A stretch of 64,000 nucleotides of DNA from Streptomyces scopuliridis RB72 (lineage in GTDB: Bacteria > Actinomycetota > Actinomycetes > Streptomycetales > Streptomycetaceae), in assembly GCF_000718095.1 (NCBI RefSeq), contig NZ_JOEI01000008.1, positions 248,001 through 312,000 on the forward strand, given 5' to 3'. Below are positions 12,995 to 21,424 of the stretch, piece by piece; positions within the stretch are counted from its first letter, which is position 1, and the number at the start of each line of letters is the position of its first letter. Both the position numbers and the translations under genes were made by a program. A model generated the notes under the pieces. It was not told the origin of the DNA, did not search any database, and saw nothing but the letters and a program-made list of their open reading frames with translations.

Positions 12995-14422
12995 ATGACG
13001 GATTCCTGGGCCAATATCCCGATCGCCGGCGTCGATCTGCATCTGGAGCTGCGCGGTTCCGGGCTGCGCTCCGGGCTCATGGACGCCCTGCGCGACGCCG
13101 TCCGTACCGGCCGTCTCGCGCCCGGCACCCGGCTGCCGTCCTCCCGTTCGCTCGCCGGCGATCTGGGCATCGCCCGTAACACCGTCGCCGACGCGTACGC
13201 CGAGCTGGTCGCCGAGGGCTGGCTCACCGCGCGGCAGGGCTCGGGGACCCGGGTGGCCCGGCGCGCCGCGCCCCGCAGACCCGCGCCCGCCGCGCCGAGA
13301 ACGCGGCCGGTCCGCCGCGGGCCCGCGTACAGCCTGATGCCGGGCACCCCCGACCTCGCCGCGTTCCCCCGGGCGCAGTGGCTCACGGCCGCCCGCCGCG
13401 CGCTGACGGCCGCGCCGCACGAGGCCTTCGGCTACGGGGACCCGCGCGGCCGGATCGAGCTGCGTACCGTCCTCGCCGACTACCTGGCGCGGGCGCGCGG
13501 CGTGTACGCCGACCCCGGGCGGATCGTCGTCTGCGCGGGCTTCGTCCACGGGCTGACGCTGCTCGGGAAGGTCCTGGCCGCGCGCCGGGTACGGGCGGTG
13601 GCCACCGAGTCGTACGGCCTCGACATGCACCGGGACCTGCTGACCGGCGCCGGGCTGCGGACCCCCGCGCTCGCACTGGACGCGCGCGGCACACGCACCG
13701 AGGACCTGGCCGGCCTGCCGGACCCGGCGGGCGCCCGTGGCGTCGGCGCGGTGCTGCTGACGCCCGCGCACCAGTTCCCGACAGGGGTGGCCCTCCATCC
13801 CGACCGGCGCGCGGCGGCCGTGGACTGGGCGCGCGGTACGGGCGGGCTGATCCTGGAGGACGACTACGACGGGGAGTTCCGGTACGACCGCCAGCCCGTC
13901 GGCGCCCTTCAAGGGCTCGATCCCGAACGGGTCGCGTACGTCGGCACGGCGAGCAAGTCCCTGGCCCCGGGGCTGCGCCTCGGCTGGCTGGTGCTGCCCG
14001 ACGAACTGGTCGGAGAGGTGCTGGCGGCGAAGGGGGAGGCGGAGTGGGCGTCGAGCGCGCTGGATCAGCTCACGCTCGCGGAGTTCATCGCCTCGGGCGC
14101 GTACGACCGTCATGTCCGCTCCATGCGGCTGCGCTACCGGCGCCGCCGCGACCAGCTCGTGGAGGCGCTGGCGGAGCGGGCGCCCGGCATCAGCGTCACC
14201 GGGATCGCGGCCGGCCTGCACGCCGTCCTCGAACTGCCGCCCGGCACCGAGCGATCCGTCATCGAGGCCGCGGCCTGGCAGGGGCTCGCGGTGGAAGGCC
14301 TGTCCCGCTTCGCCCACCCCTCGGCCCCGCCGGAGCGCGACGCCCTGGTGGTCGGCTACGCCACCCCGCCGGACAGCGCGTGGACGGGCGCGCTGGACGC
14401 GCTGTGCCGCGTACTGCCGTGA
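12995..14422 (+). CDS. MocR/PdxR-type transcriptional regulator (GntR HTH fused to aminotransferase fold)
   Basis: 475 residues from ATG 12995. Residues about 20-85 are a GntR winged helix (R-L-P-S-S-R-S-L-A, I-A-R-N-T-V-A-D-A-Y-A-E-L). The rest is a fold-type I aminotransferase domain, with K321 in T-A-S-K-S-L-A-P-G as the PLP-binding lysine and D-D-Y-D-G-E-F-R-Y for the cofactor ring. Such regulators sense PLP or an amine and control vitamin B6 or neighbouring metabolic genes. The last 63 bases, including the stop, are part of a perfect 73-bp direct repeat whose other copy is at 18610-18682, marking this 3' end as an insertion point. Confidence 0.92.
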   Translation: MTDSWANIPIAGVDLHLELRGSGLRSGLMDALRDAVRTGRLAPGTRLPSSRSLAGDLGIARNTVADAYAELVAEGWLTARQGSGTRVARRAAPRRPAPAAPRTRPVRRGPAYSLMPGTPDLAAFPRAQWLTAARRALTAAPHEAFGYGDPRGRIELRTVLADYLARARGVYADPGRIVVCAGFVHGLTLLGKVLAARRVRAVATESYGLDMHRDLLTGAGLRTPALALDARGTRTEDLAGLPDPAGARGVGAVLLTPAHQFPTGVALHPDRRAAAVDWARGTGGLILEDDYDGEFRYDRQPVGALQGLDPERVAYVGTASKSLAPGLRLGWLVLPDELVGEVLAAKGEAEWASSALDQLTLAEFIASGAYDRHVRSMRLRYRRRRDQLVEALAERAPGISVTGIAAGLHAVLELPPGTERSVIEAAAWQGLAVEGLSRFAHPSAPPERDALVVGYATPPDSAWTGALDALCRVLP

Positions 14423-14432
14423 GCCGTGCAGG
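14360..14432 (+). repeat. 73-bp direct repeat, copy 1 (3' end of MocR gene)
   Basis: Identical over all 73 bases to 18610-18682 (offset 4250). It covers the last codons and stop of the MocR gene plus 10 bases. Divergence begins at once on both sides (14359 C versus 18609 T; 14433 G versus 18683 T). This is what a site-specific or recombination insertion into a gene 3' end leaves. Confidence 0.93.
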
Positions 14433-14527
14433 GCCGTAACCGCCGTAACCGACCCTGTGTCTGTATGAGCACGCTGTGCCGCGTCATAGCCTGATGACAC
14501 CTTGTCAGGCTCGGAGAGTTGGTCACC

Positions 14528-15511
14528 GTGGCTCAGTACCTCGTCGGCTCGCGCGCAAGCAACCTTGCCAAAGCTCAAGTGCGGGATTATCTGCGCCCAC
14601 TGCGCGAGCGATTCCCGGAGACCACTTTCACGCATCGGGCGATCCTGGAAGGGGGCGACAAGGACAGAAAGTCGCTCCTGTCGAGCGTGTCCGCTGTCAG
14701 CGGCGGATCGGCTTTCAGTACCGAGCAGGAAGCGGCGTTGTGCCGCGGTGACGTGGACGTGATTGTCCATTCGATGAAAGACCTTCCGACAGCCAACCCT
14801 CGCGGGCTCATTCTGTTGCCCCCGCCGGGACGCGAGGACGTGGGAGATGCGCTGTGCGGCTCGACCCTCGCCGGGTTGCGAAAGGGCGCGAAGGTCGGAA
14901 CGGGCGCCCCACGCCGGATCGCGCAACTCCTCGCGGTGCGGCCCGATCTGGAAATCGTCCCGATCCGGGGCAACGTCCCGCCCCGCCTGAAGAAGATCGA
15001 AACCATGGGGCTTGACGCGGTCGTCCTCGCAGTGGCGGGGCTTCGCCGGCTCGGCCTGGACGACGCGATCGGGGAGGTGCTGCCGCTCGACCTCTTTCCG
15101 CCGAGCCCTGGTCAAGGGGCACTCGGGATCCAGGTCCGTACAGACGAGAATTCGGCCCCGCTGCGCGAGATCCTGTCCACGGTCGGCGACGCAGGTGTCG
15201 ACAGTCAGGTTAGGGCGGAGCGCGCTCTGCTCGCCGAACTGCACGGCGGGTGCAGCGTGCCCGTGGGCGCGTATGCCGAGACCCTGCCGGACGGGACTCT
15301 CAAGCTGTTCGGCCAGGTGACGTCGCTGGACGGTCAGCAGCGCGTTTCGGGTGCGCTCACCGGTCCGTCCGACGAGCCGGAAAAGCTCGGTGCGACCCTG
15401 GCCGCTGACCTCGTCGACCAGGGCGCGCATTCGATCCTCGACGCGGTACGGGCCACCCTCGCGGCTAGGTCCTGTCCGGTCGATCTTCGTGGGCCCGCGA
15501 CGCCGCAGTGA
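14528..15511 (+). CDS. Porphobilinogen deaminase (hydroxymethylbilane synthase) paralogue
   Basis: 327 residues from GTG 14528, placed 9 bases after GGAGAG; the TTG at 14519 is too close to that site. With this start the dipyrromethane-cofactor cysteine is C242 in G-G-C-S-V-P-V-G-A-Y and the catalytic aspartate is D85 in H-S-M-K-D-L-P, matching the family positions. G-S-R-A-S-N-L-A, G-A-P-R-R-I-A-Q-L-L, R-G-N-V-P-P-R-L-K-K and P-G-Q-G-A-L-G-I are also present. The enzyme family joins four porphobilinogens into hydroxymethylbilane. The sequence is divergent, lacks a fused HemD, and sits outside any haem operon, so it is probably an accessory copy. It converges with the HemB-like gene with a 47-base overlap. 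Confidence 0.85.
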   Translation: MAQYLVGSRASNLAKAQVRDYLRPLRERFPETTFTHRAILEGGDKDRKSLLSSVSAVSGGSAFSTEQEAALCRGDVDVIVHSMKDLPTANPRGLILLPPPGREDVGDALCGSTLAGLRKGAKVGTGAPRRIAQLLAVRPDLEIVPIRGNVPPRLKKIETMGLDAVVLAVAGLRRLGLDDAIGEVLPLDLFPPSPGQGALGIQVRTDENSAPLREILSTVGDAGVDSQVRAERALLAELHGGCSVPVGAYAETLPDGTLKLFGQVTSLDGQQRVSGALTGPSDEPEKLGATLAADLVDQGAHSILDAVRATLAARSCPVDLRGPATPQ

Positions 15512-16453
15512 CATGAGCCGCTGCCGCGGCGGGCCGCACCTCGCCGCGTTGTCGGAGTCGCCCAAGTACGTCCAGTACGAGGGCGATCCTCCGCCTTGCG
15601 ATGCACGGCACCAGACGCCGCGGGCTGATCCAACCGAGAACGGGAACAGCGGTGCTCGCGTCTGCGTCCGGAGCGTGGCGAGTACATCCGCCGTGAACTG
15701 CGCGGGCTCCAGAAGGATCATGTCGGCCCCGTCCGCCTCCATGCGTAAGGCGGTGTCGACGAACTGGTCGGCACGGCCTGGATTGATCTGGAATTCCCGG
15801 TTGGCCCCTGCTTTGGGAGTCGCCCCCATGGTGAGCCGGAATCCGTCGTACAGGCTCGACCAGAAGATGACGTGAGGCATGACGGACACCCCCTCGTGTC
15901 CCGTCTCGTCCAGTGCGCGCCGGGCGCCCCCGGTTGTGCCGAGCAGCATCGATGCGGGGCCCACGACGTCCGCGCCCGCTTCCGCGTGGACCACGGCTTG
16001 TGAGGCTGTTACTTGCACTGTCGCGGCCACGTCCGGCCGCCCGTGCTGGTCGGTGACGTAGCAGACTCCATCGGTGGTGTACGAGCAGAGGCACGTCTCC
16101 GTCATGACCGCGATCTGCGGTTCCGCTTCCTTGCACGCGTGGATGGCACGGGACATGAGCGCGTCGGGTTCGAGTGAGATTTCCCCCGTGGCGTCCCGCT
16201 CGGCGGACTCGGCGAAGAGCTTCACGGACCGGATGCCGAGGGCGGCGCACTCGCGCATCACGGCGGGAATCCCGGCGACCGTGACGGTGGGCATGGGACG
16301 GTCGGCGGGCCCCTCGGTGACGAGCAGCACCATGGACAGATCGGCGGGGGTGAGCGTCTGCGGCTCCAGCAGGCGCCGGACGGCCGGACGGCTCCGGAGA
16401 GGACTCGTTGCCCTGGTGGTCGTACGTGGGCTGGGCGTAGGGGTAACCGTCAT
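15465..16453 (-). pseudogene. HemB-like (porphobilinogen synthase homologue), catalytic lysines absent, C-terminus frameshifted
   Basis: From ATG at 16453 the frame aligns by eye with the HemB family: R-R-L-L-E-P-Q near the start, E-T-C-L-C-S-Y-T-T-D-G-V-C (the cysteines of zinc-type enzymes), V-V-G-P-A-S-M-L, R-E-F-Q-I-N-P and G-A-D-M-I-L-L-E-P-A. Both Schiff-base lysines are replaced: the first (family A-K-Y) aligns with I-F-W and the second (family V-K-P) with L-E-P. The homologous C-terminus (A-L-V-L-D-V-L-G-R-L-R-Q-R-G) continues in another frame from about 15611-15635 to the stop at 15465. The span is 989 bases; one added base would give 329 residues, the family length. The catalytic loss and the frameshift are separate observations. 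A sequencing error is possible. Confidence 0.62.
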
Positions 16454-16576
16454 GTCTCGTTCCTCATTTCGGCTGTGTTGTGCCTGTCCCGGTAGTCGGC
16501 GAGGGTTGCCATACCGCTCACGGTCAGGGCGGTATCCGCACCGGTCTGCCGGTACGGAGTCCGGGGGGTGCGGTGG

Positions 16577-16867
16577 TCATTCCGACTCGTCACGGATGAG
16601 CTGCGACCGGTGGTGCTTCGCCAGTGCCTTGAGCTGATTCCTCTCGTACTCGGTCGCCGGCCGGATCGATACGCGTCGTGATTCCCAGGTGAAGCCCGCG
16701 GGACGGATCAGCTTCACCACCGCCCCGTAGAAAGCGTCGATCACACCCGGCAGTTCAAGGTGGGAGTCATACACAGCCATACCGACCACGAGGTCATCAA
16801 GACTGGGGGACGCTGCCGGAAGCCGGCGGATCTGGTACCGCTGCGGGGCAGGCGGGGCATGCCTCAT
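16577..16867 (-). CDS. Hypothetical protein, island gene
   Basis: 96 residues from ATG at 16867, overlapping the upstream small gene by 4 bases (ATGA), so the two are translated together. It is a mixed alpha/beta small protein with P-S-L-D-D-L-V-V-G-M-A-V-Y-D-S-H, W-E-S-R-R-V-S-I-R-P-A-T and a basic C-terminal helix, Q-L-K-A-L-A-K-H-H-R-S. No family is recognised. It lies 123 bases upstream of the HemB-like gene on the same strand, possibly in one transcript, and opposite the island regulator. Similar small genes accompany TPR/HTH regulators in Streptomyces, but I cannot assign a role. Confidence 0.7.
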   Translation of the reverse strand: MRHAPPAPQRYQIRRLPAASPSLDDLVVGMAVYDSHLELPGVIDAFYGAVVKLIRPAGFTWESRRVSIRPATEYERNQLKALAKHHRSQLIRDESE

Positions 16868-17130
16868 GTGTGGTCATCCGCTCGGCGGTACGGGTGGTTC
16901 CGCAGTTCGCGGTCGCACTCCCACACGGCCGGCGATCCGCGCCCGAACCGGGCCTCCGCCCGCTGCTTGACCAGCGCGGCACACACTGGGCAACCGTCGT
17001 ATGGGGCAGGTTCGGGTTCGGCGCACGTCCAGGGCACATCGCCGGGCAGCAAGCGGTAGAAGCCACTCGACTCGACCCGCGCGACCAACTCCGTAACGCC
17101 GTTGCCCAATTGAAAAGCCTGGTCCGCCAT
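16864..17130 (-). CDS. Hypothetical protein with a CPVC motif, island gene
   Basis: 88 residues from ATG at 17130. A C-P-V-C pair occurs in Y-D-G-C-P-V-C-A-A-L-V-K-Q-R-A-E-A-R-F, followed by a helix and a W-E-C-D-R-E-L segment with another cysteine, so a metal-binding or redox fold is conceivable. The N-terminus reads F-Q-L-G-N-G-V-T-E-L-V-A-R-V-E-S-S-G-F-Y. It is the first gene of the minus-strand transcript and is divergent from the regulator at 17262 with 131 bases between starts. No family recognised. Confidence 0.7.
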   Translation of the reverse strand: MADQAFQLGNGVTELVARVESSGFYRLLPGDVPWTCAEPEPAPYDGCPVCAALVKQRAEARFGRGSPAVWECDRELRNHPYRRADDHT

Positions 17131-17261
17131 CGGTTGCCCTTCCTTTCTACGCCCCTTGCTGTGCTCGCACTAGGTAACCGCTCCATCACTCGCAGCGGTA
17201 CGGTGGGGAAGCGGCCAAGGATTAAGAGGGTTAAGCGGCGAGAACCCGGGAGTTGGGGCCA

Positions 17262-18593
17262 GTGACGACACGACGACCGAACGCAGGGTTGGAGCGGCTG
17301 TACCGTGAGAGCGGGTGGACACTGCGCCAACTCGCCCAAGCGGTCAACCGCATCGGGACCGAGCGGGGAACGCCGTTCACATACTCACCGCCGTCGGTCC
17401 ACCAGTGGCTACAGGGGCACATGCCACGCGAGACTGTCCGTCCCCTCATCCTCGAAGCGCTGTCCCGGCGACTTCACCGCCCGGTCACGTCCAGTGAGGC
17501 TGGCTTTCCCGCGTCACTCGATCAGTTGAAACAACCCGCCAGTACCGTGGAGGGGCTGTTTGATCTGGGGAGGCAAGATATGGACCCGTCCCGCCGAAGA
17601 GTCCTCGGCGTGGGACTCTTCTCTGTAGCACTCACCATTCCGGGCTGGCCCGACGTGGTGGGCCGGATGGAGGCCATAAAGACTGATCCGCAGCGCCGCA
17701 TCGGGCAATCCGAAGTTCAGGCGGTTTTGGCAATGACCGATCGCCTGTCGGACCTCGATGACGAATTTGGTGGACGCTACGCACGTCCGATGGCCGCTGC
17801 TTTCTTGGTCAACACAGTTGCTCCCTACTTGAAAGCAAGCGCGTCAAGCGAAACTCGCAAATCAATGATGTCTGCTGCCTCTTTTCTCTGCTACCTGACT
17901 GGATGGATGGCAGTGGATGAGGGGGCGCATGGTCGCGCGCAAGAGTATTACGTAAAGAGCTTGGAGCTGGCGGGTGCCAGTGGCGACCACATGACCTATT
18001 GCCACGTCCTACGGGGCATGTCAGTGCAAGCGGCAAATCTGGGCCACGGCACACCGGCGGTACGGCTCGCGAACGCTGCCGCAGAGGCATCACCTGAGTC
18101 CAGCCCCCGCATGCGCGCGTTTCTCGCCGGACAACAGGCGCACTCGTACGCGCTGGCAGGTGAGAAGACAAACGCGCTGAACAGTCTCCGCGAGGCAGAA
18201 CGCGCGGTGAATCAGGCGGAGAGCCAACTCGGGACGTTCGGCGGATTCAGCTCGGCGACGTTGGCCTATTCCACATCGGAAGTCAGGCATGCTTTGGGTG
18301 ACGTGAAGGGGAGCGTTGAATCCCTTCATGACCATTTTTGTCTGCGAGATTCCAGCGACAAGCAGAGGTCCAATTTGATTTTCAGTTCCCTGCTAGCCGA
18401 AAGGCAGCTTCAAATGGGCCACCTGGAGGCAGCTTGCTCAACGTGGGGCAAGGTGCTGGACGCTTATCCGGCGATCCATTCCGGGCGAATTGATGGACAG
18501 GTTGCCAAGATCCCGTCCTTGCTCGCGCCCTATCGGTCAAACTCAGTCGCTCGGCACCTTCTTGAGCGCTCGCGTGACGTATCCGTGAACTAG
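17262..18593 (+). CDS. HTH regulator with TPR-like C-terminal region, island gene
   Basis: 443 residues from GTG 17262, 9 bases after GGGAG. The first 75 residues form an XRE-like helix-turn-helix (G-W-T-L-R-Q-L-A-Q-A-V-N-R, S-P-P-S-V-H-Q-W-L-Q-G). After a linker the protein is all helical, with TPR-like spacing of Ala, Tyr and Leu (R-A-Q-E-Y-Y-V-K-S-L-E-L-A, A-L-A-G-E-K-T-N-A-L-N-S-L-R-E-A). This layout is typical of Streptomyces regulators whose TPR domain binds a peptide or small ligand. Third-position A/T is clearly higher than in the surrounding genes, consistent with acquisition. It is divergent from the two small genes and its stop lies 17 bases before the second 73-bp repeat. Confidence 0.82.
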   Translation: MTTRRPNAGLERLYRESGWTLRQLAQAVNRIGTERGTPFTYSPPSVHQWLQGHMPRETVRPLILEALSRRLHRPVTSSEAGFPASLDQLKQPASTVEGLFDLGRQDMDPSRRRVLGVGLFSVALTIPGWPDVVGRMEAIKTDPQRRIGQSEVQAVLAMTDRLSDLDDEFGGRYARPMAAAFLVNTVAPYLKASASSETRKSMMSAASFLCYLTGWMAVDEGAHGRAQEYYVKSLELAGASGDHMTYCHVLRGMSVQAANLGHGTPAVRLANAAAEASPESSPRMRAFLAGQQAHSYALAGEKTNALNSLREAERAVNQAESQLGTFGGFSSATLAYSTSEVRHALGDVKGSVESLHDHFCLRDSSDKQRSNLIFSSLLAERQLQMGHLEAACSTWGKVLDAYPAIHSGRIDGQVAKIPSLLAPYRSNSVARHLLERSRDVSVN

Positions 18594-18609
18594 CGGCCCA
18601 GGGGCCCCT

Positions 18610-18682
18610 GCCACCCCGCCGGACAGCGCGTGGACGGGCGCGCTGGACGCGCTGTGCCGCGTACTGCCGTGAGCCGTGCAGG
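18610..18682 (+). repeat. 73-bp direct repeat, copy 2
   Basis: Perfect copy of 14360-14432. Here it is only the orphaned 3' end of the MocR coding sequence with its stop and no gene before it, so it marks the far boundary of the island. About 160 bases without a gene follow, up to the VOC gene. Confidence 0.93.
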
Positions 18683-18845
18683 TGGGGAGTCGCGCCGTAC
18701 CGCCGTACCCGGTCCGTAGGGAGTAACGGGGCGCGACAGCCCCCGGGGCCCGGCCTACGCTGATCACCACGGCATCGCGTGTCGGTCACCGTCCGGGTGC
18801 GGCATGGAGGTGTCCGTGAGTTTGCCCTTACGGAGGCATTTCACA

Positions 18846-19235
18846 GTGCCAGTCCAGCTGAATCACACCATCGTCCATTCCAAGAACAAACGGGAATCCG
18901 CCGAGTTCCTCGCGCGGATCCTCGACCTTGAGGTCGGGGACGAGTGGGGCCCGTTCATCCCCGTGGAACTGAGCAACGGCGTCACCCTCGACTTCGCGAC
19001 CACTCCGGAAGAGCCGATCGCCATACAGCACTACGCCTTCCTGGTCACCGAGGCGGAGTTCGACGGGATCTTCCAGCGGATCCAGGACGCCGGGCTCACG
19101 TACTACGCCGATCCGCACCGCGAGCGCCCCGGCGAGATCAACCACAACGACGGCGGGCGCGGCGTGTACTTCATGGATCCCGCGGGTCACGCGCTGGAAG
19201 CGATCACCCGTCCCTACGGAGGGGGCGAGAGCTAG
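18846..19235 (+). CDS. VOC-family (glyoxalase/dioxygenase-like) protein
   Basis: 129 residues from GTG 18846, 9 bases after GGAGG at 18832-18836; the ATG at 18804 has no such site. One vicinal-oxygen-chelate domain is present: L-N-H-T-I-V-H-S-K near the start, a central H-Y-A-F-L-V, and Y-F-M-D-P-A-G-H-A-L-E-A-I-T at the end. The two histidines and the last glutamate could be metal ligands. Members range from glyoxalases to fosfomycin-type thiol transferases and dioxygenases; a single small domain does not tell which. It is the first chromosomal gene after the island. Confidence 0.88.
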   Translation: MPVQLNHTIVHSKNKRESAEFLARILDLEVGDEWGPFIPVELSNGVTLDFATTPEEPIAIQHYAFLVTEAEFDGIFQRIQDAGLTYYADPHRERPGEINHNDGGRGVYFMDPAGHALEAITRPYGGGES

Positions 19236-19323
19236 GGCCCCTCCCGGCACCGGTACTCCAGCCGTAGATCGTGATCTTCAACGAAGAGTCGGTGGCCGTA
19301 GGTCGAAGCATGGATCCCGGCCG

Positions 19324-19495
19324 TTGGCGGGAGGCGTTCGCGGTGGTCATGAGCCGGATCGCGGGCCGGTGCTGATCTGGCGTAAGCGCACCACCGGCGA
19401 ACTCGCCTGCTGCCGGTGCCACTCCACCGTGCCGGTCCCGCTGGGTCACCCTCGTCATGCTCGCCCACGCCTTCCTCGCCGTCGTCCGCGCCGAC
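19324..19495 (+). pseudogene. IS701-type transposase remnant
   Basis: Two pieces of a Streptomyces IS701-like DDE transposase are recognisable. About 19369-19443 encodes T-T-G-E-L-A-C-C-R-C-H-S-T-V-P-V-P-L. Directly after it, in another frame, 19439-19495 encodes R-W-V-T-L-V-M-L-A-H-A-F-L-A-V-V-R-A-D. In intact enzymes these blocks are separated by about 40 residues, so an internal deletion joined them. There is no start and no full-length frame. It marks an old insertion-sequence site next to the TnpB gene. Confidence 0.72.
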
Positions 19496-19647
19496 CGTCC
19501 ACGTTCGCGACCGACCTCACCGGGACCGCGCTCAGCGCCTCGATGACGGCTCAGACCGTGGCTCCCAACCCGGTTACGCTCGGCCTGGCCGCCGGCGCCG
19601 GTGCGGCCTACGCGGGCGCCCTCGGCCCGTACGACCGAAGGAGACCG

Positions 19648-19806
19648 ATGCATACCGCCACCGCCCCGATCACGCTGGAATTCTGGAAGGAGGGCCGCGC
19701 GTACGAGCGGCGCGCCGGCTATCGGGGCGCGTCACCGGAGTTCGGCGAGATCGTGCTGACCTGCCCGCTGCCCAGGCAGAGCACCGTTCCTATCCAGTGC
19801 GCGTAA
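19648..19806 (+). CDS. Possible small or truncated protein
   Basis: 52 codons from ATG 19648, four bases after AAGGAG. The frame continues upstream to about 19499 with good GC third-position bias, encoding a Gly/Ala-rich hydrophobic stretch (T-L-G-L-A-A-G-A-G-A-A-Y-A-G-A-L), so a longer gene may once have existed. The peptide has L-E-F-W-K-E-G-R-A-Y-E-R-R and ends in a Cys-Ala. Its last bases overlap the end of the TnpB frame, which suggests truncation by that insertion. No family recognised. Confidence 0.35.
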   Translation: MHTATAPITLEFWKEGRAYERRAGYRGASPEFGEIVLTCPLPRQSTVPIQCA

Positions 19807-21424
19807 GTGGGTCTTGGACCCGCTGGTGCGTTCTGGGCGCATCCTGAACGGTTGTGGATGCACTCGGTTGCCGCTTTCGCGTCCCGTTCGGCGGCGGCTC
19901 TCCATGGGGCCGGTCCGTGGCGGGTGGGCGGTTCCCGTCACACCCTCGGGCATCCGGTGGGGCCTGGACGGTCCGATGCCCGTAACGATCGCTCTGGTCG
20001 TTACGGGGCGGTGCCGTCCGTCGCCTGATCGGGTGTCCGAGGGCGCGTCGTCCGATCGCGATGCTCGCGGCATCGTGTCGGCTGGTCTTACGTCGTGGGG
20101 TGGTGAGGGGTTTCTGCCAGTGCTGGGCGCCCCAGCGGGAGGTGTAGGCGGGGTCGACGGCGACGATGGTGAGGCCGTGTTCGGCAGCCATCGACACGAG
20201 GCGGGCCCGGAGCCTGCTGGTGGGGAAGCGGGAGATCAGACGCCGGAACCGCTTTCTGCCGCCGTGCTTCTCCCGGGTCTTGTCCCGGTCGAAGTTGAGG
20301 TCCTCGACCGCGATGGCCCGCACTCCGCACCCGCGCGCCCAGTGCAGGAGACGGGTCAGCGCGTGCCGGATCTGCGCGTCGCGATGTGGTGCGGTCCCGG
20401 ACAGGTCGTAGCAGAAGCGGTGGGGTTCGCCCACTGGGTTGCCGTGGGGGTCGAGTTGCCAGGCGGCGAGGTGGTCGTCGTTCATGTCCACCCCGATACA
20501 GCCCGCAGTCAGTACCGCGTCCAGGGGCAGGGCGGGCGCGGGCTTGCGCTGCCAGGATGCCGTGACATACCAGCGGTCCCGGTCCGGATCGTGGTGGAGG
20601 GTGTAGGCGACGGCCCGGTTCCCGGCGATCCGATCGGCCCACTCCTCACCCCGGTACGGGAACACCACCGCCCCGGCCAGGGCGAACCGGCCGTACGGCG
20701 CGTTGGCCAAGTGGGCCAGTTGGGTGGGGAGTTTGACCGAGAGGTGTCCGTCGGGGGTGATGCGGATGGTCTCGTTGCCGTACCGCTTGCCCGTCTCGCC
20801 GTCGGCGGACAGGAACATCCGCGCCGCATCCCACCGCCCCCGCCACCCCCCTTCGCTGAGCCGGGCGTCGGTGAGGTGGTGGCGGGTGTTGGCAAGGCGC
20901 TTCCCGCCCCGTACGACCCGTACCCGCCCGGCCCGCCACTCCGCCACCGCCCTGTCCCGGCGCGCCACCAGCACCGTCAGGCGGCGGGACTTGGCATGCC
21001 ACTCCCGCCGGGACCGGTACCCGCCCGCAGCCCGCTTCGTACCCCTCTCACCCACCGGCAGCGACAACCGATGCCGCACCACCGCGATCCCCGCCTCCAG
21101 CCCCCGGATATACGCCGCCAGACCCCGACGCGCCAAAGCCCACTGATCATGCGTGGCCTTCGTGATGCTCCCTGCCCACCGCGACGACGACACACCCGTC
21201 AACACACGCTTACGCACCGCCCAGCACTCCGCGTCGTGAGCCAGACCGTCACGGCAGCGCACCGCCAGATCACCCGACGCCAACGACCCCAGCAATCCAC
21301 CGACTTCACGCAACACCCCCGCCTCGACAGCGGTAAGGCGCAGCCGGGTACGGACCGCGACACCAGCGGGACCGGGCACGACAAACGACGCGGCCACAGC
21401 CCGAAACCCCGCCACCATCCCCAC
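19790..21424 (-). CDS. TnpB-like transposon-associated nuclease (IS200/IS605 type), stand-alone
   Basis: 544 residues from ATG at 21424. The RuvC-like catalytic triad is complete: D313 in G-V-D-M-N-D-D, E374 in V-E-D-L-N-F, and D451 in S-R-H-D-A-A-S-I-A-I-G. The usual zinc ribbon between RuvC II and III is missing; no CxxC pairs occur there. TnpB proteins are RNA-guided nucleases that maintain IS200/IS605 elements; this zinc-ribbon-less branch is common in Streptomyces as TnpB-related proteins. No tnpA partner is present. The last 75 residues are low-complexity basic sequence, where the guide RNA of such elements is normally encoded. The insertion lies between a transposase scar and a truncated permease. 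Confidence 0.85.
   Translation of the reverse strand: MGMVAGFRAVAASFVVPGPAGVAVRTRLRLTAVEAGVLREVGGLLGSLASGDLAVRCRDGLAHDAECWAVRKRVLTGVSSSRWAGSITKATHDQWALARRGLAAYIRGLEAGIAVVRHRLSLPVGERGTKRAAGGYRSRREWHAKSRRLTVLVARRDRAVAEWRAGRVRVVRGGKRLANTRHHLTDARLSEGGWRGRWDAARMFLSADGETGKRYGNETIRITPDGHLSVKLPTQLAHLANAPYGRFALAGAVVFPYRGEEWADRIAGNRAVAYTLHHDPDRDRWYVTASWQRKPAPALPLDAVLTAGCIGVDMNDDHLAAWQLDPHGNPVGEPHRFCYDLSGTAPHRDAQIRHALTRLLHWARGCGVRAIAVEDLNFDRDKTREKHGGRKRFRRLISRFPTSRLRARLVSMAAEHGLTIVAVDPAYTSRWGAQHWQKPLTTPRRKTSRHDAASIAIGRRALGHPIRRRTAPPRNDQSDRYGHRTVQAPPDARGCDGNRPPATDRPHGEPPPNGTRKRQPSASTTVQDAPRTHQRVQDPLTRTG

Follow-up and report, generated by a model that had tools for sequence, protein, structure and literature searches.

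Results

The window analysed here, a stretch of 64,000 nucleotides from Streptomyces scopuliridis RB72, contains a MocR/PdxR-type regulator gene on the plus strand (12995..14422; NCBIfam NF052282, 376.4 bits, cut-off 320) whose 3' end is present twice. This is a host gene, with DNA matches in 388 of 392 genomes of the genus (E <= 0.001). Immediately behind it, comparison with other genomes places the start of a sequence common to blocks elsewhere (14449..14518, plus strand, beginning CCGACCC), which forms the upstream region of a hemC-like gene (14519..15511, plus strand; TIGR00212, 247.8 bits, cut-off 164; Pfam Porphobil_deam, E 4.7e-55). Facing the hemC-like gene is a hemB-like gene of the ALAD fold (15633..16453, minus strand; Pfam ALAD, E 2e-48) that has lost approximately 50 C-terminal codons, as judged by alignment with longer relatives; a S. 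scopuliridis HemB-like protein shows 97 percent identity. Two small open reading frames on the minus strand, of 96 amino acids (16577..16867) and 88 amino acids (16864..17130), belong to no family and had no Pfam or NCBIfam match in profile searches; the cluster that contains the 96-residue frame counts 5 member sequences. The block is completed by a plus-strand gene for an NsdA-family TPR-like regulator (17253..18593; NF053720, 417.6 bits, cut-off 75; NsdA_fam_reg, E 8.7e-125). Beyond the block lies a VOC/glyoxalase-fold gene (18804..19235, plus strand; Pfam Glyoxalase), which is the right neighbour of MocR at empty sites. A preliminary description of this DNA had listed the cargo as two tetrapyrrole-enzyme homologues, two small genes and a regulator, partly with lower-GC codon use and with no integrase, and the profile matches bear this out: GC3 is 0.67-0.84 in the genes inside the block, compared to 0.93 in MocR, and none of the five open reading frames matched an integrase or transposase. 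Searches with PADLOC models returned 0 matches at E <= 0.01 for the S. lushanensis HemB-like and HemC-like proteins and for the window's two small open reading frames and regulator.

The window copy of the block is decaying, through insertion of a miniature element and a deletion in hemB. Homology of the hemC-like gene to its relatives stops at approximately 15464-15468, indicating that the gene's own stop has been displaced by a MITE-like repeat (15465..15632, no strand assigned), which was recognized from repeat pieces in the genome and whose right terminal inverted repeat is missing; the stretch 15440-15700 has 59 matching pieces in the genome, inverted end matches counted. Beside this repeat, hemB has lost some 150 bp at its 3' end. 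It had been proposed that the perfect repeat reflects a recent event or continuing selection; recency holds for the identity of the repeat copies and not for the block, and the hem genes are decaying and not under evident selection.

A repeat search of the window confirmed the perfect direct repeat of 73 bp, which comprises the last 63 bases of the MocR/PdxR gene plus 10 more and whose identical copies lie 4250 bp apart. In both the repeat search and a genome search, the left copy (14360..14432, plus strand) is the intact gene end and the right copy (18610..18682, plus strand) is an orphan gene end. In the genome-wide search for the repeat that had been proposed, with 40 of 191 candidates scored, the 8.24-Mb draft genome yielded these two full copies of the 73-mer and two partial matches (44 and 32 bases). 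Similarity had also been said to halt abruptly on both sides, and this requires correction at the right edge where the right copy has 11 extra bases and similarity then resumes, 14433-14447 aligning to 18694-18707 with a single gap (a score reached by 1 of 5000 random controls). The 15 bases at 14433..14447 (plus strand) are thus a degenerate continuation of the duplicated host sequence, whose counterpart at 18683..18707 (plus strand) includes the 11 bases found in the right copy only, and this continued match extends the duplicated host stretch to approximately 88 bp on the left and 98 bp on the right. The same 14433-14447 segment also resembles the sequence downstream of MocR in Streptomyces sp. 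L-9-10 (2 of 5000 random controls). Between the regulator stop codon and the right repeat copy is a 16-bp spacer (18594..18609, plus strand) that is weakly similar to the sequence past the regulator in L-9-10 as far as the right joint, where both have GCCA (35 of 2000 controls).

The two window copies of the 73-mer have 0 differences, while the L-9-10 sequence differs from them at 6 of 73 positions. Were the duplication older than the split from L-9-10, approximately 6 differences between the copies would be expected, and the chance of finding none is 0.0025. Unusual conservation of the MocR end was ruled out as the cause of this identity, since conservation of the end is 0.83 against a gene mean of 0.77 across 32 orthologs and its third-position conservation ranks 92 of 356 windows. 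On the favoured explanation, the 73-bp part of the repeat would have formed, or been homogenised, later than the split from L-9-10. The 73-mer has no special DNA structure (z-score -0.08), and a promoter and terminator scan found nothing beyond chance level. A tRNA or tmRNA was rejected as the target, as none lies within the window.

Empty sites, at which MocR and the VOC gene are adjacent and the gene end is single, were found in three relatives, MnatMP-M17 (G028), S. lushanensis and NRRL F-5135. These junctions, together with a similar-looking site at PhoD, uphold the earlier proposal of an insertion at a gene 3' end that kept the gene whole. In S. lushanensis the block lies behind PhoD, as it does in decayed form in MnatMP-M17. 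No block follows PhoD in the window strain, L-9-10 or F-5135, where the PhoD site is empty, and the F-5135-type site is empty in M17. The preliminary description had named a relative without the repeat and with the same gene order as evidence against insertion, and L-9-10 comes close to this, with the block behind the same MocR gene and no second repeat; it also has no VOC gene. Comparing L-9-10 with the window, with the OAT gene left out, dS is 0.53-0.86 for the two small genes (s96 and s88) and NsdA and 0.11-0.15 for their neighbours, which strains vertical inheritance of the whole block. Within flanks of approximately 1.5 kb, 28 further MocR loci contained no second MocR end, block or VOC gene, and nothing informative emerged from the flanks of NsdA homologues in other places. 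Close to related hemB-like or hemC-like genes there is an integrase gene in one genome (G069), a relaxase gene in another (G009, partial hemB only) and both in S. iranensis; such hem-like genes are also carried by the prophage-episome phiM2.

Past the PhoD-site block lies a piece that resembles the 3' end of PhoD, with DNA scores of 48 in M17 (0 of 4000 controls) and 32 in S. lushanensis (6 of 4000 controls), values that the controls flatter somewhat because the piece was first noticed in a scan of 20 loci. Cross-comparisons were reached by 0 and 6 of 2000 controls, and the score at the empty PhoD site of the window genome was only 16. The M17 and S. lushanensis blocks represent one common site and are not independent, and tblastn with the C-terminal 120 residues of PhoD as query gave no credible match at the far boundaries (best E 0.62). 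Sequence similarity supports, without making certain, the reading of this piece as a decayed copy of the PhoD 3' end. From the regulator stop codon to the start of the gene-end copy is 16 nt in the window and approximately 22-35 nt in S. lushanensis. In Actinacidiphila acididurans, a direct repeat matching at 37 of 38 bp flanks the block, lying about 10 nt past the stop of an MFS-like gene (a label given by eye) and about 51 nt past the regulator. Relatives do not conserve the sequence that follows the MFS-like gene; this is a weaker, third case of a block-flanking repeat, and its host origin is putative. No convincing flanking repeat was seen at 18 of the 20 other loci, one of which, in S. 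lushanensis, is the source of the weak PhoD match described above. The scan left aside L068, where hemB is only partial, and L122, which comes from the genome of L065; one side of L112 offered just 682 bases, and three of the loci match hemC only (L162, L163 and L164). A gene-end copy was absent from NRRL F-5135 and from two Actinacidiphila-related genomes in which the hemC-like gene lies behind another gene. At two sites, which differ in sequence, the block thus seems to go together with duplication of a gene end.

Porphobilinogen synthase (HemB/ALAD) has two active-site lysines that form Schiff bases, as well as zinc cysteines, and hydroxymethylbilane synthase has a catalytic Asp and a cofactor Cys. 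The HemB-like protein resembles porphobilinogen synthase in matching Pfam ALAD over most of its length, in having PBGS chains as its best PDB matches and in keeping the zinc cysteines (118, 117 and 116 of 119 relatives), yet it lacks both Schiff-base lysines: in none of the 119 relatives does a lysine fall in either column or up to 2 columns away, and 117 have Glu at the second position. The phiM2 HemB-like protein is likewise lysine-less, by eye. The HemC-like protein resembles porphobilinogen deaminase (HemC, HMBS), scoring above the TIGR00212 cut-off and keeping the catalytic Asp and cofactor Cys motifs, HS(M/L)KDLP and GGCSVPVG, in an alignment of eight sequences, from which the rows of S. 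lacrimifluminis and of two canonical proteins, being out of frame, were not used. Its gene differs from the housekeeping type in adjoining the lysine-less hemB-like gene. No HemB-like protein was found in viral contigs, and nine phage records that match it at 28-35 percent are taken to be probable ordinary hemB.

Discussion

The locus presents a direct repeat of a gene end, empty sites in relatives, a block that occurs at other places and no integrase inside that block. To explain this combination we favour, at slightly below an even chance, capture of a travelling accessory block behind MocR in which the gene end was duplicated, such that the repeat would be a target duplication and not an att core. 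The block would have joined immediately behind the MocR gene, and duplication of the MocR end would leave MocR whole on the left and an orphan 3' end on the right. The joining itself would most likely be integrase-free illegitimate recombination, either by capture at a staggered break that is filled in on both sides or by a process that relies on homology at one end and on a few microhomologous bases at the other. The position of blocks behind gene ends may be set by selection, because only such insertions spare the neighbouring gene. Afterwards, the window copy would have acquired the MITE and the hemB deletion, and the 73-bp part would have been formed or homogenised after the split from L-9-10. 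That different sequences seem to be duplicated at two sites argues for target duplication and against an att core.

Another possible, if rather unlikely, explanation is that the repeat arose from a later exchange between an occupied chromosome of the L-9-10 type (MocR, block, other genes) and an empty one (MocR-VOC), by a homologous crossover on one side and microhomology joining on the other. The two copies would then be identical because they came from the same parent, in keeping with the lack of differences between them despite the divergence of L-9-10, and the left flank past the repeat resembles L-9-10, as does weakly, up to the GCCA at the joint, the sequence past the regulator. Such homology-facilitated illegitimate recombination with anchors of 3-10 bp is described in PMC6382021 and PMC8504540. 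Its products in Acinetobacter, pneumococcus and Pseudomonas stutzeri have foreign DNA joined through a short common sequence at one end, as may be the case here, and flank duplication may be a possible outcome; the window block differs in coming from a natural isolate and in having similar blocks at several sites. Gene conversion between two copies in one chromosome would give the same picture, however, the similarity at the joint is weak, and the PhoD gene-end piece at a second site is left unexplained. Much less probable still, local duplication or an assembly artefact unlinked to block movement would suit a draft genome of 117 contigs, but the empty junction occurs in three relatives, where the gene end is single; contamination is 0.03, and the flanks on both sides match genuine sequence in relatives.

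The window block also resembles a decayed IME or ICE, in that it lies at the 3' end of a gene that stays intact, has direct repeats at both ends and encodes no integrase, and relatives have a single-copy empty site. Decayed elements of which just attL and attR remain are called CIMEs, according to PMC5704250. A cis-mobilizable remnant of this kind, with the gene 3' end as att site and the integrase supplied from elsewhere, would fit the integrase and relaxase genes near related hem-like genes and their presence on phiM2, but we consider it improbable. MocR, PhoD and Actinacidiphila have repeats that differ in sequence and share no common core, other occupied sites lack a repeat, and the right copy is absent in L-9-10. 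Moreover, the candidates scored in the genome contained no further full 73-mer, no integrase element was found at the MocR gene in the loci read, and the 28 further MocR loci had no second MocR end, block or VOC gene. Nor was there a clear attP-like MocR end in phages, where matches amount to 35 bases in four Caulobacter phages, or in viral contigs (0 matches). Part of the MocR-end query matched 25 plasmid records, which we read as probable MocR-type genes; the one annotated match listed is a PLP-dependent aminotransferase gene, the annotation that MocR itself would receive. A DDE or other transposon was rejected, as the block ends have no inverted-repeat pair of at least 14 bp and the duplication spans 73-98 bp and has another sequence at PhoD.

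Under capture with target duplication, the block hints at unusual integrase-free gene movement. If this is true, part of Streptomyces accessory gene flow escapes searches for integrases and transposases, and flanking gene-end copies are a signature to search for. A broader and tentative reading, which we hold to be doubtful, is that the block is an actinobacterial mobile unit free of an integrase, which settles behind the 3' ends of genes and leaves long target duplications that vary in length and sequence. This self-standing unit would combine the HemC-like protein with a new ALAD-fold subfamily in which both Schiff-base lysines are lost and the zinc site is kept, often beside HTH/TPR regulators and also on a prophage-episome, and might perform pyrrole-related or signalling chemistry. 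The lysine-less HemB-like family and its HemC-like partner pose a directly testable question on a well-studied enzyme fold. As for the duplications that this broader reading would group together, they would be perfect at MocR, decayed at PhoD and perhaps represented by the 37/38-bp repeat in Actinacidiphila.

Repeat structure and gene content of the block

The preliminary description placed a perfect 73-bp direct repeat around the block, and a repeat search recovered it, with identical copies at 14360-14432, at the end of the MocR/PdxR-type host gene MocR (12995-14422, +), and at 18610-18682, before the glyoxalase-fold gene VOC (18804-19235, +). The same search found no terminal inverted repeats of at least 14 bp at the block. 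No third full copy of the 73-mer was found in the 8.24-Mb genome (40 of 191 candidates scored), and partial matches of 44 and 32 bases scored far lower than the full copies. Similarity had also been said to stop abruptly on both sides; this holds at the left edge but not at the right, where the match resumes after 11 bases that are present in the right copy only. Here 14433-14447 aligns with 18694-18707 across a single gap, a match equalled by 1 of 5000 random stretches. Because 14433-14448 resembles the sequence downstream of MocR in Streptomyces sp. L-9-10 (a score reached by 2/5000 random controls), it is probably host sequence, and the continuation would therefore extend the duplicated host stretch to ~88 bp in the left copy and ~98 bp in the right.

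Profile searches agreed with the gene content first proposed, giving a hemC-like gene, a hemB-like gene, two small ORFs that match no family and a regulator of the NsdA family, and with the lack of an integrase, since none of the five ORFs matched an integrase or transposase. The lower-GC codon use reported for parts of the block is likewise evident (GC3 of 0.67-0.84, vs 0.93 in MocR).

Empty and occupied sites in relatives

A search of related genomes for an empty MocR-VOC junction, as had been suggested, found VOC directly downstream of a single MocR gene end, with the block absent, in Streptomyces sp. MnatMP-M17 (M17), S. lushanensis and NRRL F-5135. Twenty-eight further MocR loci (~1.5 kb flanks) contained no VOC, block or second MocR end, and 28 further VOC loci with similar flanks contained no MocR; the MocR-VOC adjacency is therefore known solely from this small group. 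The same three relatives carry block genes elsewhere. In S. lushanensis the block is complete and is flanked by a gene for a PhoD-like phosphatase and one for an FAD/NAD protein (the PhoD site), and in M17 a decayed block occupies the same place. In F-5135 the search found the hemC/hemB pair only, adjoining a LacI-type gene (labelled by eye) a few kb from PhoD, at a site that is empty in M17. The PhoD-FAD junction is empty in the window genome, L-9-10 and F-5135; in the first two, the 19-kb stretch surrounding the PhoD site yielded no hemC/hemB DNA. In L-9-10 the block follows the same MocR gene as in the window and comprises hemC, a hemB shortened at its N terminus, the two small genes and the regulator. 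MocR and hemC are ~95 bases further apart there than in the window, and neither VOC nor a second repeat was found at this block. Across the genus, hemC/hemB-like DNA occurred in 13 of 392 sampled genomes (E <= 1e-40), some with hemC only.

The PhoD-site block has, on its far side, a stretch that resembles a degraded part of the 3' end of PhoD itself. The M17 match was first noticed in a flanking-repeat scan of 20 loci (E 5.5e-6). When the final 200 nt of PhoD were aligned locally with a 150-nt stretch from the block's far boundary, M17 scored 48, against a maximum of 36 among 4000 random stretches, and S. lushanensis scored 32, a value reached by 6/4000; cross-comparisons between the two gave 0 and 6 of 2000 controls, and 16 was the score at the window genome's own PhoD site, which is empty. 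The copy begins ~22-35 nt after the regulator stop in S. lushanensis, vs 16 nt in the window. As M17 and S. lushanensis share one site, this gene-end copy counts as one case, not two. M17 also carries a ~620-bp insert (L065:7586-8253) with ~23 bp at its bounds matching one S. lushanensis stretch on both sides, possibly another insertion with a direct repeat.

Age and origin of the repeat

Between the window and L-9-10, background dS is 0.11-0.15 (five genes), hemC and hemB reach 0.25-0.27 (~1.8x MocR), and the two small genes and regulator (16577-18593) reach 0.53-0.86. The hemC/hemB to MocR ratio is roughly 1.6-2 for the window vs S. lushanensis and vs F-5135 as well; given such similar ratios, hemC/hemB divergence seems to have kept pace with the genomes although the sites differ. 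The left repeat copy differs from L-9-10 at 6/73 positions, and a duplication predating the split would be expected to show ~6 differences between the window copies (probability of none, 0.0025). Their identity suggests that the 73-bp part was probably made or homogenised after the split.

Since the duplicated sequence varies by site, the repeat is best read as copied target sequence rather than an att core carried by the element. We favour a model in which the block was captured behind a gene end without an integrase, giving a long target duplication; the ends would have been joined either through break capture or through one-sided homology plus microhomology. The nearest known routes include homology-facilitated illegitimate recombination, as outlined in PMC6382021 and PMC8504540, and CIMEs, as outlined in PMC5704250. 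A repeat arising later, as a hybrid between occupied and empty chromosomes, would account for the window alone nearly as well, but leaves the PhoD site unexplained. Our confidence in integrase-free capture is slightly lowered because the PhoD copy was not seen at the protein level: tblastn of the last 120 PhoD residues against the far boundaries gave no credible match (best E 0.62).

Against recurrent gene-end duplication, 18 loci of the 20-locus scan, S. lushanensis among them, lacked a convincing flanking repeat, and no gene-end copy was seen at the boundaries in F-5135 or in G455 and G433, two relatives of Actinacidiphila acididurans. A. acididurans itself has a 38-bp direct repeat (37 matching) located ~10 nt 3' of the stop of an MFS-like gene (labelled by eye) and ~51 nt past the regulator gene. 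In 9 of 13 relatives' loci, the MFS-like gene is followed within ~600 bp by a gene that sits 7 kb away in A. acididurans, so an insertion is present here too; no trace of a host origin for the 38-bp sequence was found in these loci. In G455 and G433, a hemC-like gene lies behind another gene and has no hemB-like partner.

Decay in the window

The window hemB-like gene (15633-16453) is broken. Its last ~150 bp (50 residues), kept in L-9-10 and S. lushanensis, are gone beside a MITE-like repeat (15465-15632) that lacks its right inverted repeat; the two losses go together. The searched stretch around this repeat matched 59 pieces of the genome, inverted end matches included. Beyond VOC, in the interval 19236-19780, 19490-19780 matches parts of two genes that are intact in L-9-10, there downstream of the regulator, and the preceding stretch has the look of a transposase fragment (judged by eye); 19790-21424 (-) encodes a TnpB-family protein that barely passes TIGR01766 (33.2 bits, cut-off 32) and falls under the NF040570 cut-off.

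The HemB-like and HemC-like proteins

The HemB-like proteins form a subfamily inside the ALAD family. Neither Schiff-base position, as placed by PDB alignment, has a lysine at it or next to it in any of 119 relatives (P0122-P0240), which match the S. lushanensis protein at E <= 1e-80 and come from 7998 scored candidates. Glu occupies the second position in 117, and 118, 117 and 116 of the relatives retain the respective zinc cysteines. We take the two ALAD lysines to form the Schiff bases and the cysteines to bind zinc. The HemC-like partner retains HSMKDLP or HSLKDLP and GGCSVPVG, presumably the catalytic Asp and cofactor Cys motifs. Full-text searches of openly licensed papers listed no relevant description of HemB-like or HemC-like paralogues in Streptomyces.

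A HemB-like relative is encoded in 14 of 31 pattern-matching stretches from named species genomes, and the gene is often convergent with the HemC-like gene. In single Streptomyces loci, neighbours include HTH-DUF5753, DUF397, DUF6879 and HATPase_c_2 proteins. The Streptomonospora litoralis element phiM2, which has been described as a prophage that exists as an episome too (PMC8448680), carries hemC adjoining a HemB-like gene (L198:6264-7259) with both lysine substitutions, as judged by eye (NZ_CP036456.1 15589-17531); the neighbours of this pair include an HTH regulator gene and small ORFs.
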